From NCBI RefSeq assembly GCF_900188065.1, contig NZ_FZNQ01000002.1, forward strand, positions 248,001-312,000: a stretch of DNA of 64,000 nt. The letters run 5' to 3'. This DNA comes from Halorubrum vacuolatum (GTDB taxonomy: Archaea > Halobacteriota > Halobacteria > Halobacteriales > Haloferacaceae). The first letter of the stretch is position 1, and each line of letters starts with the position of its first letter. A program made the translations under genes and the position numbers. A model generated the notes under the pieces. That model saw only the letters and a list, made by a program, of their open reading frames with translations. It was not told the origin of the DNA and did no database searches. Positions 5,480-10,145 of the stretch are shown piece by piece.

Positions 5480-5499
5480 CTGCCCGAGGAGTGTGGGAC

Positions 5500-6846
5500 A
5501 TGGACGTGGTCATCGTCGGTGCCGGCGAGGTGGGAACAGCGATCGCCGCCAACCTGGCGTCCGATCACGATGTCGTGGTCGTCGACCTCGATCAGGACCT
5601 CACCGACGAGTTGACCTACGATCTCGACGTGCTCTCGATCGCAGGGGACGGCACGACCCTGCCGACCCTGCGGGCGGCGATGGTCCCCGAGGCCGATATG
5701 TTCATCGCCTGTACCGACGACGATCGGACGAACCTCGTCGCCTGCGGCACCGCGAAAACGCTCGGCGACCCGTTTACCATCGCCCGCACGAAACGAACGG
5801 ACTATCTCCGTGTCTGGGAACACGACGAATCCGCGTACGGGGCCGACTTCGTCGTCTGCACGGATCTGCTTACCGCCGAGAACATCGTTCGTGTCATCGG
5901 CCTCCCGGCCGCCATCGACGTCGACCCGTTCGCCGGCGGACTCGTACAGATGGCCGAATTCGACGTTACGGAGGAAAGCCCAGTCGCCGGTCGGACCGTC
6001 ATGGAGGCGGACCGGTTCGAGGCGCTCACGTTCGCCGGGATCTTCCGCGACGAGGAGCTGATCCTCGCCCGCGGGGATTCGCTCATCCGTGCCGGCGATC
6101 GCGTAGTCGTCATCGGGAGCCCCGAGAGCGTGCAGTCGTTCGCCACGGACGTCGCTCCCGAGACGACGCCGGATCACGCCGACGAGATCGTGATCGTCGG
6201 CGGGAGCGAGACGGGCTATCACACCGCCCGGCTGTTGGAGGAACGCTCGCTTCATCCCCGGCTCATCGAGCAGGACGGGGATCGCGCGCGCTTTCTCGCC
6301 GAGAATCTGCCACACACGTTGGTGATGGCACACGATGCGACCGACACGGAGTTTCTCGTCCGTGAACACGTCGACGACGCGGACGTCGTCGTCGCCGCGC
6401 TCGCGACCGACGAGCGGAACCTGCTCGTCTCCGTCCTCGCGAAACGCCTCGGGGTCGATCGGGTGATCGCGGTCGTCGACAGCGCCGACTACGTCACCCT
6501 CTTCGAGGAGATCGGTATCAACGTCGCGATCAACCCGCGGTTGGTCACCGCCGAGGAGATCACGCGATTCAGCCACGAAAGTATCGCCGAGAACATCTCC
6601 GTGCTCGAAAACGACAGGGCGGAGGTGGTAGAGATCGAGCTCGCGGCCGACTCGCCGCTCGTGGATCGACCGATTCAGGAGATCACGGCGGAGTTGGAAG
6701 CCAGGGTGGTCATCGGCGCGATCACCCGAAACCGAACACACGTCACGCCACGCGGTGATACCGTCTTACGATCCGGCGACCACGTCGTCGCGTTCGTCGA
6801 GTCGTCGTTCGTGAACGAATTGACCGCCCTCTCCTCGGCGACGTAG
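5500..6846 (+). CDS. trkA: Trk potassium uptake regulatory subunit TrkA (two RCK units)
   Basis: This 448-aa cytoplasmic NAD(H)/ATP-binding gating subunit starts MDVVIVGAGEVGTAIA, a Rossmann glycine motif. A second Rossmann half begins at about residue 227 with VIVGGSETGYHTARLL. Each half is followed by a TrkA-C-like beta domain; the last ends LRSGDHVVAFVE. This is the full-length duplicated form. Its TAG stop is immediately followed by the trkH ATG (no spacer), so the channel and its gate are co-translated. An in-frame start three codons upstream is possible but less likely. Confidence 0.95.
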   Translation: MDVVIVGAGEVGTAIAANLASDHDVVVVDLDQDLTDELTYDLDVLSIAGDGTTLPTLRAAMVPEADMFIACTDDDRTNLVACGTAKTLGDPFTIARTKRTDYLRVWEHDESAYGADFVVCTDLLTAENIVRVIGLPAAIDVDPFAGGLVQMAEFDVTEESPVAGRTVMEADRFEALTFAGIFRDEELILARGDSLIRAGDRVVVIGSPESVQSFATDVAPETTPDHADEIVIVGGSETGYHTARLLEERSLHPRLIEQDGDRARFLAENLPHTLVMAHDATDTEFLVREHVDDADVVVAALATDERNLLVSVLAKRLGVDRVIAVVDSADYVTLFEEIGINVAINPRLVTAEEITRFSHESIAENISVLENDRAEVVEIELAADSPLVDRPIQEITAELEARVVIGAITRNRTHVTPRGDTVLRSGDHVVAFVESSFVNELTALSSAT

Positions 6847-8355
6847 ATGTACGGAAACACGCGTATCCGGGTCGATTGGCGCGCCAGCGCTGAGCTGATG
6901 GGTGTCGTATTGATCTATTTCGCGGTCCCGCTTTCGTTTCCACTGCTTTTGGCCGTCTACTTCGAGGAGCCGCTGACGCCGTTCCTCGTCGCCATCGGTG
7001 TCACGCTGGCGCTCGGAGCCGGCCTTCGGCGGCTCGGCGACCCGGAGGAGAACCTCGGCCCACGGGAGGCGTTTCTCGCGGTCGCACTCATCTGGCTGCT
7101 CGTCGCCGTCGTCGGAGCGGTACCCTTCGTGGTCGCAGGCGCCGGGACGATTGCCCACCCGGTGAACGCGCTCTTTGAATCGATGAGCGGGCTGACGACG
7201 ACCGGCGCGACGGTGCTCGTTGACTTCTCCGTTCACGACCGGTCGATCATGATGTGGCGACAGCTCATCCAGTGGCTCGGCGGGCTCGGGATCCTGATTC
7301 TCGCGACCGCGGTCCTCTCGGAGCTCGGGGTCGGCGGGGCACAGCTGATGGAGTCGGAGACGCGAACGCGTAACGTCAACAAGCTCACGCCGCACATCGC
7401 CGAGACGGCACGTCTTATCTGGGGGCTCTACGTCGGCCTGACGCTGCTCGCGGCGGTCGTTTTTTTCGTGCTCGGACTCGCGTTCGACCCCCGAATGGGG
7501 CCGTACAACGCGCTTGCACACGCGTTCACGTCGGTGGCGACGGCGGGCTTCTCGCCCGAGCCGCTCTCGGCGGGGGCGTTCCATCCCGTGCTACAGTGGG
7601 CGATCGTCCCGTTCATGATCCTCGGATCCACCAGTTTCATCCTGCTCTACGTCTTTATCAACGGCGAGCCGAGGCGGCTGCTTCGTAACGAGGAGTTCCG
7701 GTTTTATGTAGGGGGGCTTGGAATCTTCGCGGCGCTCGTCGCGCTCGTCCTCTTTGTCACCGGCGAGCAGGGAGGGGCGATCGAACCGACGATCCGCCAC
7801 GCCGTCTTCAACGTCACCTCCATCGTCACGACGACGGGCTATGCGAGCACGGACTTCAACCTGTGGTCGCCTGCCGCCACCTATCTCCTCTTTCTCGCGA
7901 TGTTTACGGGCGGGATGGTCGGGTCGACAACCTGTTCGATCAAGTCGTTGCGGTGGCTCGTCGCGCTCAAGTCGCTGCGCCGGGAGCTCTTTACGAGCGT
8001 CCACCCCGAGGCCGTCCGTCCCGTACGGGTCTCCGGATCGCCGGTGGCGGAGGACACGATCCGCGACGTCTACGCCTATCTCCTTTTGGGGATCGTGATA
8101 TTCGTAGGCCTCGCCGTCTTCGTCGCCGTCGACGCCGCACGGGTGGGGATGGACCTCTCGGCGTTCGAGGCGATGGGCGCGGCCGCCTCGACGTTCCTGA
8201 ACATCGGACCCGCCTTCGGGGAGGCCGGACCGTACGGGACCTATGCCGCCTTCCCGATGAGCACCCGAAGCGTCATGATCGTCTTGATGTGGGTCGGCCG
8301 GATCGAGATGATCCCGGTCCTCGTGTTGTTCACGAGGACGTTCTGGACGTCGTAG
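6847..8355 (+). CDS. trkH: Trk potassium uptake transmembrane subunit TrkH
   Basis: This is a 502-aa polytopic K+ translocating subunit of the TrkH/KtrB superfamily. The pore-loop motifs recur along the protein: SGLTTTGATVL, the TSVATAGFSPEPL region, SIVTTTGYASTDF and ASTFLNIGPAFGE, each with the selectivity glycine. It is directly downstream of trkA with zero spacing. The last codons (F-W-T-S-stop) are also the start of a 29-bp tandem repeat that continues past the stop, so the 3' end has been duplicated outside the coding region. Confidence 0.95.
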   Translation: MYGNTRIRVDWRASAELMGVVLIYFAVPLSFPLLLAVYFEEPLTPFLVAIGVTLALGAGLRRLGDPEENLGPREAFLAVALIWLLVAVVGAVPFVVAGAGTIAHPVNALFESMSGLTTTGATVLVDFSVHDRSIMMWRQLIQWLGGLGILILATAVLSELGVGGAQLMESETRTRNVNKLTPHIAETARLIWGLYVGLTLLAAVVFFVLGLAFDPRMGPYNALAHAFTSVATAGFSPEPLSAGAFHPVLQWAIVPFMILGSTSFILLYVFINGEPRRLLRNEEFRFYVGGLGIFAALVALVLFVTGEQGGAIEPTIRHAVFNVTSIVTTTGYASTDFNLWSPAATYLLFLAMFTGGMVGSTTCSIKSLRWLVALKSLRRELFTSVHPEAVRPVRVSGSPVAEDTIRDVYAYLLLGIVIFVGLAVFVAVDAARVGMDLSAFEAMGAAASTFLNIGPAFGEAGPYGTYAAFPMSTRSVMIVLMWVGRIEMIPVLVLFTRTFWTS

Positions 8356-8454
8356 TCCACCGGGAGTGGTTCTGGACGTCGTAATCCACCGGGAGCGGTT
8401 CTGGACGTCGTAGTCCACCGGGAGCGGTTCTGAACGTCGTAATCCGCCGAGCGG
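8341..8454 (+). repeat. 29-bp tandem repeat (4 copies) spanning the trkH stop codon
   Basis: Copies lie at 8341-8369, 8370-8398, 8399-8427 and a diverged 27-bp copy at 8428-8454. Each begins with the bases that encode Phe-Trp-Thr-Ser-stop in trkH (TTCTGGACGTCGTAG or TAA variant) and continues TCCACCGGGAG. Copies differ by one to a few bases. There are no spacers between copies. The stop codon is in the first copy. Confidence 0.95.
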
Positions 8455-8500: not shown

Positions 8501-9283
8501 ATGGCCGCGAAGCCGACGGTCGGGGAGTACATGACCCGTGATGTTGAGACGGTCTCGGCGGAGGACACGGTCGCTGAGGTGTCAAAGCGGATGGTCGAAA
8601 GCGTCGGTCACAACGGGTTTCCGGTCACGAAGGGCCGAAAAGTCGAGGGGTTCGTCTCCGCACGCGACCTCCTGCTCGCCGACGATGACGCGCCGATTTT
8701 CACCGTCATGGCGACGGATCTGGTCGTGGCCCACCCGGATATGAAAGTTACCGACGCCGCGCGGGTCATCCTTCGGTCCGGGATCCAGAAGCTCCCGGTC
8801 GTCGACGATGCGGACAACCTCGTCGGGATCATCTCGAACACCGACGTCGTTCGATCCGCGATCGAGCGTGCGACACCCGGTAAGGTCGGAAAGCTGGTTC
8901 GCACGTTGGAGCAGATACACGGCGTGGACTTGGATGAGGACCGACGCATGGTGTCGCTGGCGACCCTCACGCCGACACAGGACCGCGTCTACGCGGACGA
9001 ACTCGAGGGACGACAGTACGAGCTTGAACGTGGACTCGCCGAACCGCTCGTAGTCATCGACAACGACGGACAGCTGTATCTCGCTGACGGTCATCATCGG
9101 GTGATGGCCGCCTCCGCGCTCGGTATCGAGGAGATGGACGCGTACGTGATCGTCCCGGAGCGGCGACTCGATCTGGGGATGGCGAAAACCGCCGAAAAGG
9201 AAGGGCTGCGAACGATCTCCGACATCGAGATCGTCGATTACGCGAAACACCCGCTTGTGGAGACGACGCGGCGGTTGCAGTGA
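8501..9283 (+). CDS. CBS-domain pair fused to a ParB/sulfiredoxin-fold domain
   Basis: This 260-aa soluble protein has a tandem CBS pair at about 8-60 and 68-125 (VGEYMTRDVETVSAEDT, then QKLPVVDDADNLVGIISNTD). A ParB/Srx-fold domain follows at about 145-255 with YLADGHHRVMAAS (DGHHR at 196-200). CBS pairs usually bind adenine nucleotides. The DGHHR motif is that of the free-serine-kinase (SerK) branch of this fold, not of segregation ParB with its HTH. The protein lacks any DNA-binding HTH, so a regulated kinase or nucleotide-switch role is an inference. It lies 146 bp after trkH, with its own T-rich promoter-like tract near 8468. The ATG at 8501 was chosen because it begins the CBS domain. 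Confidence 0.88.
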   Translation: MAAKPTVGEYMTRDVETVSAEDTVAEVSKRMVESVGHNGFPVTKGRKVEGFVSARDLLLADDDAPIFTVMATDLVVAHPDMKVTDAARVILRSGIQKLPVVDDADNLVGIISNTDVVRSAIERATPGKVGKLVRTLEQIHGVDLDEDRRMVSLATLTPTQDRVYADELEGRQYELERGLAEPLVVIDNDGQLYLADGHHRVMAASALGIEEMDAYVIVPERRLDLGMAKTAEKEGLRTISDIEIVDYAKHPLVETTRRLQ

Positions 9284-9353: not shown

Positions 9354-10145
9354 GTGCAGATCGTCGGCTACGAGACGGACCCCGGAGACGGCTCACGCGA
9401 TCGCGACACGGAAGCGACCGGTGCAGGACTCTACGTCGCCGACGGGGAGGCGATCGAGTTCATCGACGCGGGGGCCGGGACGGAACTCTCGTTCGGGCTC
9501 GGCGAGCGCCACTGTGCGGGAACGATCCACGACGGTCGCCACGTTCCCTGCGGGGAGCGCGACGCCCCGTACTGCGAGGCGCATACGCACGTATGGGTCT
9601 GTGCCCGGTGTACGGGGACCTGTTTAAAAGACGAGATGGACTGTCACGAGCCGCACGCGATGTATCTCGCCGCGTTCGCGCCTGACGTGTTCAAAGTCGG
9701 CGTGACACGGGAGTGGCGGCTCGAAACCCGGCTTCGCGAGCAGGGTGCGGACCGGGCGGCTCACATCCGGACGTTTCCGGACGGGCGGATCGCCCGTGAG
9801 GTAGAAGCGGGACTCGCCACGCGTCCGGACCTCGTCGACCGCGTCCGAGTCCCGACGAAGATCGCCGGCTTGCACCGAACCGTGGATATGAACGCGTGGG
9901 CCGAGTTGCTCGATCGGTTCGATCCGATCGAGACGTTCAGCTTCGAGGACGGACCCGAACTCTCGGATCGACCGGTCCCCGAGACGATGGCGGCCGGAAC
10001 CGTACTCGGCTGGTCGGGACGCGTACTGGTTATCGAACGGGATGGCTCGACCTACGCGGTCGATGCGCGCGATCTCGTTGGCCACGAACTCCTCGCGGAG
10101 CCCACGGAACGCGATCTGCAGTCGAGCCTCGGCGCGTTCGGCTGA
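9354..10145 (+). CDS. DUF2797 family protein
   Basis: This is a 263-aa protein with a GTG start. A Cys/His-rich N-terminal half suggests zinc binding (RHCAGTIH, CGERDAPYCEAHTH, CARCTGTC, DEMDCHEPH). A region resembling a GIY-YIG-like nuclease scaffold follows (MYLAAFAPDVFKVGVTREWRLETRLREQGAD), then a variable C-terminal part. This matches the architecture of DUF2797, whose function I do not know. The GTG at 9354 is about 28 nt from an AT-rich tract and is the only early start that keeps the complete Cys region. Confidence 0.8.
   Translation: MQIVGYETDPGDGSRDRDTEATGAGLYVADGEAIEFIDAGAGTELSFGLGERHCAGTIHDGRHVPCGERDAPYCEAHTHVWVCARCTGTCLKDEMDCHEPHAMYLAAFAPDVFKVGVTREWRLETRLREQGADRAAHIRTFPDGRIAREVEAGLATRPDLVDRVRVPTKIAGLHRTVDMNAWAELLDRFDPIETFSFEDGPELSDRPVPETMAAGTVLGWSGRVLVIERDGSTYAVDARDLVGHELLAEPTERDLQSSLGAFG

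Follow-up and report, generated by a model that had tools for sequence, protein, structure and literature searches.

What does a protein that joins a pair of CBS domains to a ParB/Srx-type domain do in a haloarchaeon? The gene for such a protein, P0001, lies in a 64,000-nucleotide stretch of Halorubrum vacuolatum DNA (the window), where its reading frame is open over 260 codons. Of 59 haloarchaeal genomes, 58 hold a full-length orthologue with 60-84% identity whose ends nearly coincide with those of P0001; the frame is therefore not a chance one. Its features, at positions of the window, are:

8501 to 9283, plus strand: the CBS-CBS-ParB/Srx protein P0001, 260 aa, an open frame with approximate ends shared by the orthologues of relatives.
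8519 to 8674, plus strand: CBS domain 1, about residues 7-58 (Pfam CBS), with GFVSARD (50-56) as its ribose/phosphate-type motif.
8705 to 8857, plus strand: CBS domain 2, residues 69-119 (Pfam CBS), with the motif GIISNTD (109-115).
8837 to 8920, plus strand: a long helix, residues 113-140, that links CBS pair and ParB/Srx domain in the AlphaFold2 model.
8951 to 9247, plus strand: the predicted ParB/Srx-fold domain, residues 151-249 (AlphaFold2, fold matches and ParBc_2).
8972 to 8980, plus strand: the PTQ motif, residues 158-160 (hhalign, PDB mutants and conservation).
8996 to 9022, plus strand: the DELEGRQYE helix, residues 166-174 (conservation).
9032 to 9046, plus strand: GLAEP, a C-motif-like loop, residues 178-182 (where ParB has GxxQP; aligned to GILQP of B. 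subtilis ParB).
9086 to 9100, plus strand: DGHHR, a P-motif of the GxxR type, residues 196-200 (conservation; aligned to GERR of ParB and DGHHR of SerK).

The domain architecture is supported by both profiles and models. Pfam finds the two CBS domains of P0001 (E 2e-23), each of which shows a G-h-h-[ST]-x-x-[ND] nucleotide motif. ParBc_2 (PF08857) matches the whole protein weakly (E 4e-4, 21.1 bits, with a cut-off of 23.6), and scores 24.0 bits with the C-terminal domain alone and 24.8 with the family member at locus L160; it matches all 31 family members tested. AlphaFold2, run on alignments of orthologues, models whole P0001 as a CBS pair plus a ParB/Srx fold with a mean pLDDT of 84.8 and a pTM of 0.53, so the arrangement of the domains is uncertain, and gives the C-terminal domain alone a pLDDT of 91.7 and a pTM of 0.83. 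When the whole-protein model is used in a fold search, CBS proteins fill the result list; among the solved pairs that the P0001 CBS domains resemble is AcuB with bound AMP, ADP or ATP. The best structural match of the C-terminal domain is Atu1540 (PDB 2hwj; Z 10.4, 3.1 A over 109 residues), for which no CBS pair like that of P0001 is mentioned. Sulfiredoxin (human 3cyi, Arabidopsis 6ky4) follows at Z 9.5-9.8, and SerK and ParB stand at about 8; SbnI is also found. Sulfiredoxin is likewise a small ParB/Srx domain of similar size, but its motif is GCHR, whereas the DGHHR of P0001 has no Cys and P0001 carries the CBS pair. Because SerK, sulfiredoxin and ParB tie within Z 2, we did not use fold rank to choose a subfamily; a profile search of PDB sequences puts ParB first. 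We have high confidence in the prediction that the C-terminal domain of P0001 adopts the ParB/Srx fold, and the CBS-ParB/Srx architecture given in the initial annotation is borne out by Pfam and the AlphaFold2 models.

Conservation across 120 homologues (100 haloarchaeal and 20 methanogen or Archaeoglobi-type) singles out four elements of the C-terminal domain. From haloarchaea to methanogens, PTQ is invariant (120/120), with Gln at position 160 in 100/100 haloarchaeal and 20/20 other sequences. The same 120/120 count holds for D166, E167, G170, R171 and E174 of the DELEGRQYE helix, for E181 and P182 of the GLAEP loop, and for DGHHR, which ends the stretch YLADGHHR (residues 193-200). Invariance of these residues fits a working pocket. 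The nucleotide motifs of the CBS pair are nearly as constant: D56 of CBS domain 1 is kept in 99/100 haloarchaeal and 18/20 methanogen or Archaeoglobi-type homologues, and N113 and D115 of CBS domain 2 in at least 98% of homologues.

By hhalign, Q160 pairs with the Gln in the NPYQPR stretch of B. subtilis ParB, equivalent to Q52 of M. xanthus ParB. In the M. xanthus Q52A chain (7bnr) KDAPR stands in place of KDQPR, and ParB-Q52A is without CTPase activity (PMC12462528). GLAEP aligns with GILQP of B. subtilis ParB and DGHHR with GERR; the Arg of GxxR is needed for NTP binding in the ParB fold, and its change to Ala abolishes binding (PMC12704722). P0001 thus resembles the ParB CTPases of B. subtilis (Spo0J, 6sdk) and M. 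xanthus (7bnk) in having Gln at the hydrolysis position, a GxxR P-motif and a conserved loop Pro (GLAEP/GILQP).

The gene neighbourhood varies with lineage. In 47/100 haloarchaeal loci, and in 13/20 loci when one per genus outside Halorubrum is taken, the same strand carries a gene for a TrkA_N-DHH-DHHA1 protein, at most 300 bp upstream (for example L096, 4062-5543; L108, 3981-5543; L130, 4018-5505; and 44 other haloarchaeal loci). The source genome carries a TrkA_N-DHH-DHHA1 gene elsewhere, at 49% identity. At methanogen-type loci L141, L144, L145 and L147-L149, hisE (encoding phosphoribosyl-ATP pyrophosphohydrolase) is downstream on the same strand, overlapping or a few bases off; a wHTH-CBS regulator is the neighbour in L142-L146, and other methanogen-type loci have hsp20 on the upstream side and an NTP-transferase on the downstream side. 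In L160 the neighbour is purQ. Given these differences, no partner stands out everywhere.

Based on this data, we propose that P0001 is a soluble, CBS-gated switch that binds NTP in the ParB manner and acts on a partner, a reading to which we give an even chance. The N-terminal CBS pair would bind an adenosine-type nucleotide, and the long helix would pass its state to the ParB/Srx domain. That domain may use the GLAEP loop and DGHHR to bind an NTP, and then slowly hydrolyse it or switch conformation, and P0001 would act on a partner protein or RNA. The protein is probably a dimer through its CBS pair. A dimer is favoured by a Methanocorpusculum-like genome (G258; L166 and L168; C1, about 1632200-1633750) in which a single frame of 513 aa holds two complete CBS-CBS-ParB units, an arrangement expected of a covalent pseudo-dimer. 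The near-invariant CBS motifs, the closeness of the CBS pair to nucleotide-bound AcuB, and neighbours that lean to nucleotide chemistry (the DHH phosphoesterase, HisE and PurQ) all favour a switch, as do the confidently predicted ParB/Srx fold, the invariant pocket residues, the match of Q160 to Q52 of M. xanthus ParB, the need for the GxxR Arg in NTP binding and the vertical, chromosomal distribution. Counted against it are the lack of an evident ParB Box III (ENxQR), the presence of E181 where the C motif usually has Gln, the variation of the neighbours with lineage, and the precedent that no NTP binding was seen for 17 of 28 purified proteins of the ParB fold (PMC12704722). Nucleotide specificity within the fold is predicted by neither sequence nor AlphaFold3 (PMC12704722). 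In addition, the many acidic residues that are invariant in the DELEGR helix would fit an enzyme acting on a substrate of its own, too.

That last point leads to the main alternative, that the ParB/Srx domain phosphorylates a small non-serine substrate with ATP or ADP as the donor, under allosteric control by the CBS pair. Such an enzyme would use its own invariant residues (D166, E167, E174, E181, D196 and H198/H199), and speaking for it is how densely the pocket region is set with charged residues that stay invariant across two very different lineages. SerK and sulfiredoxin show that the fold can move phosphate, their structural Z scores are no lower than that of ParB, and the six methanogen-type loci at which hisE overlaps or follows the gene would agree with a metabolic role. 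However, P0001 has no known substrate-binding domain, with 60 residues after DGHHR compared to about 170 in SerK; Gln replaces the catalytic Glu of SerK; and the neighbours vary by lineage. We regard the metabolic enzyme as a doubtful but serious contender.

Another enzyme idea came from the initial annotation, which took DGHHR as the mark of a SerK-like kinase. We consider a CBS-controlled free-serine kinase of the SerK or SbnI type very improbable. SerK of T. kodakarensis (TK0378; PDB 5x0b) does share the ParB/Srx fold, DGHHR and the absence of an HTH with P0001, and hhalign pairs the family with SerK at a probability of 83-84%. (The SerK query sequence is identical to PDB 1vk1, and the 5x0b sequence was read from the alignment.) PDB titles name SerK E30A and E30Q mutants, whose chains read KPHAQ and KPHQQ for KPHEQ; the position of Glu30 is thereby fixed. 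Nagata and colleagues reportedly found in 2017 that this residue is needed for catalysis. In the hhalign alignment P158-T159-Q160 falls on P28-H29-E30, and the spacing from Q160 or E30 to the next Gly is 18 residues in both the P0001 family and SerK. A catalytic Glu, expected in the homologues of a SerK-like kinase, is therefore found in 0/120; the invariant Gln in its place is the very change seen in the SerK E30Q construct (PDB 5x0j/5x0k). With the ParB-type Gln in place of the SerK Glu, NTP hydrolysis or switching is likelier than serine phosphorylation. The Pfam SerK_C domain (PF18231) is found in SerK at E 7e-51 and has no match in P0001 at E up to 1. The CBS pair of P0001 is a further difference from SerK.

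DGHHR is not SerK-specific, since a DUF1015 match in P0001 rests on the same stretch, and superposition on SerK, proposed as a check in the initial annotation, does return the fold (Z about 8) but does not discriminate, because ParB equals it. A SepRS model gives nothing above cut-off in the source genome, which is weak evidence, so no known phosphoserine-tRNA route would be there to use the product; in the work of Makino et al., clear homologues of SerK were limited to four hyperthermophile genera (PMC5120207). We reject the serine-kinase reading on the Glu30 position and the missing SerK_C. Of the "energy-sensing kinase or nucleotide switch" suggested at the outset, the switch is a plausible reading, already published as a proposal for archaeal ParB-CBS fusions (PMC12704722), and the SerK-like kinase falls with Gln at the Glu30 position. 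A second DGHHR protein is encoded in the source genome (L172; G000:C39:213172-213291); it has no CBS domains and belongs to a different family.

Could P0001 instead be a CTP-dependent, DNA-bound ParB-like protein of chromosome or plasmid partition? It retains the ParB-type Gln and GxxR, and ParB leads the profile search of PDB sequences. Nevertheless, Pfam finds neither an HTH family nor a ParB C-terminal dimerisation domain in P0001, where about 40 residues remain after the ParB fold, and a DNA clamp is unlikely for this reason. Unlike the ParB CTPases, P0001 also lacks a clear Box III and has a CBS pair, which replaces the DNA-binding part, and its gene is a single chromosomal copy. No parA is found among the conserved neighbour clusters of the 120 loci or in the window flanks. 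With HTH, C-terminal domain and parA all missing, we reject a role in partition as very improbable, in agreement with the initial annotation, which had argued from the missing HTH.

The distribution of the CBS-ParB family is vertical and chromosomal. A profile of the domain has a match in 248/393 genomes of the phylum sample, and the CBS-CBS-ParB layout is the same in all 20 non-haloarchaeal loci sampled. An origin from a mobile element was considered and rejected: a plasmid collection yields one record of the family (50% identity), and a viral scan yields no full-length relative, only partial matches at 29-58% identity. Two haloarchaeal genomes have a diverged second copy. Diverged second CBS-CBS-ParB copies stand at L169, L170 and L171; the L171 copy retains PTQ and DGHHR and has lost the DE, GR and E positions of the DELEGR helix.

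In the window, trkA-trkH lies directly upstream of the P0001 gene on the same strand (5491-8355), and the initial annotation had drawn from this a link to potassium or osmotic balance. The arrangement recurs at 2/120 other loci, both in Halorubrum (L051, Halorubrum sp. T1Sed10_15; L082, Halorubrum sp. JWXQ-INN 858), and within this genus most loci carry other genes in that place. Regulation of potassium or osmotic balance by P0001 through trkA-trkH is thus highly improbable, despite these three loci and the TrkA_N domain of the DHH neighbour in other haloarchaea, given that trkA-trkH is absent at the remaining 118/120 loci and that a 145-bp gap, which includes a tandem repeat, lies between trkH and the P0001 start. 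On this 120-locus comparison we reject the trk link as a general feature. The repeat has a 29-bp unit in 3.8 copies (92% matches; 8340-8449), starts at the trkH 3' end and occupies most of the gap. Downstream of the P0001 gene is a gene for a DUF2797 protein (9354-10145, plus strand), which also adjoins in L051.

Fusions of this kind have been reported. Kaljevic et al. (2025, PNAS) found CBS to be the most frequent ParB-fold fusion in archaea, with the fusions mainly in Methanobacteriota and Haloarchaea, and suggested coupling to metabolic state (PMC12704722). Their ParB-CTPase-CBS fusions are like the P0001 family in combining CBS with the ParB fold, in being chromosomal and vertically inherited, and in their main lineages. 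Their survey searched with PF02195.22 at the gathering cut-off (PMC12704722). With PF02195.25, none of 31 family members comes near the cut-off (best E 0.002); at the cut-off the source genome has no match, and no family member is recovered among 59 haloarchaeal genomes. PF02195-positive proteins of two haloarchaeal genomes show no CBS pair by eye. Either the older PF02195.22 caught the P0001 family, or the published set is another family. The initial annotation suggested that this may be an undescribed regulatory enzyme; the CBS-ParB fusion is of an already known kind, although PF02195.25 misses the P0001 family.

The haloarchaeal neighbourhood suggests a candidate signal for the proposed switch. 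For H. volcanii, the proposed c-di-AMP phosphodiesterases are HVO_0990, HVO_0756 and HVO_1690 (PMC8305020), and the phosphodiesterases of this organism have also been stated as unknown (PMC8646023). In Haloferax the DHH gene comes after nuo genes, and from gene order our guess is that HVO_0990 is the DHH gene upstream of CBS-ParB. We propose the TrkA_N-DHH-DHHA1 neighbour as a candidate of the c-di-AMP phosphodiesterase class. It is conceivable, if rather unlikely, that the haloarchaeal CBS pair senses c-di-AMP (or its product pApA/AMP) made and removed together with the upstream DHH phosphoesterase, and that the ParB fold is the NTP-driven output. If true, P0001 would add a c-di-AMP effector to those known, and no CBS-gated ParB-fold switch before it would have had its signal identified.

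Although nearly all haloarchaea and many methanogens have the CBS-ParB family, it is uncharacterised. For this family, the alignment provides a clear ground to drop the serine-kinase reading and to favour NTP binding or hydrolysis. Should the DHH protein prove to be a c-di-AMP phosphodiesterase, it and the CBS-ParB protein together would lead directly to parts that are still missing from archaeal c-di-AMP signalling.
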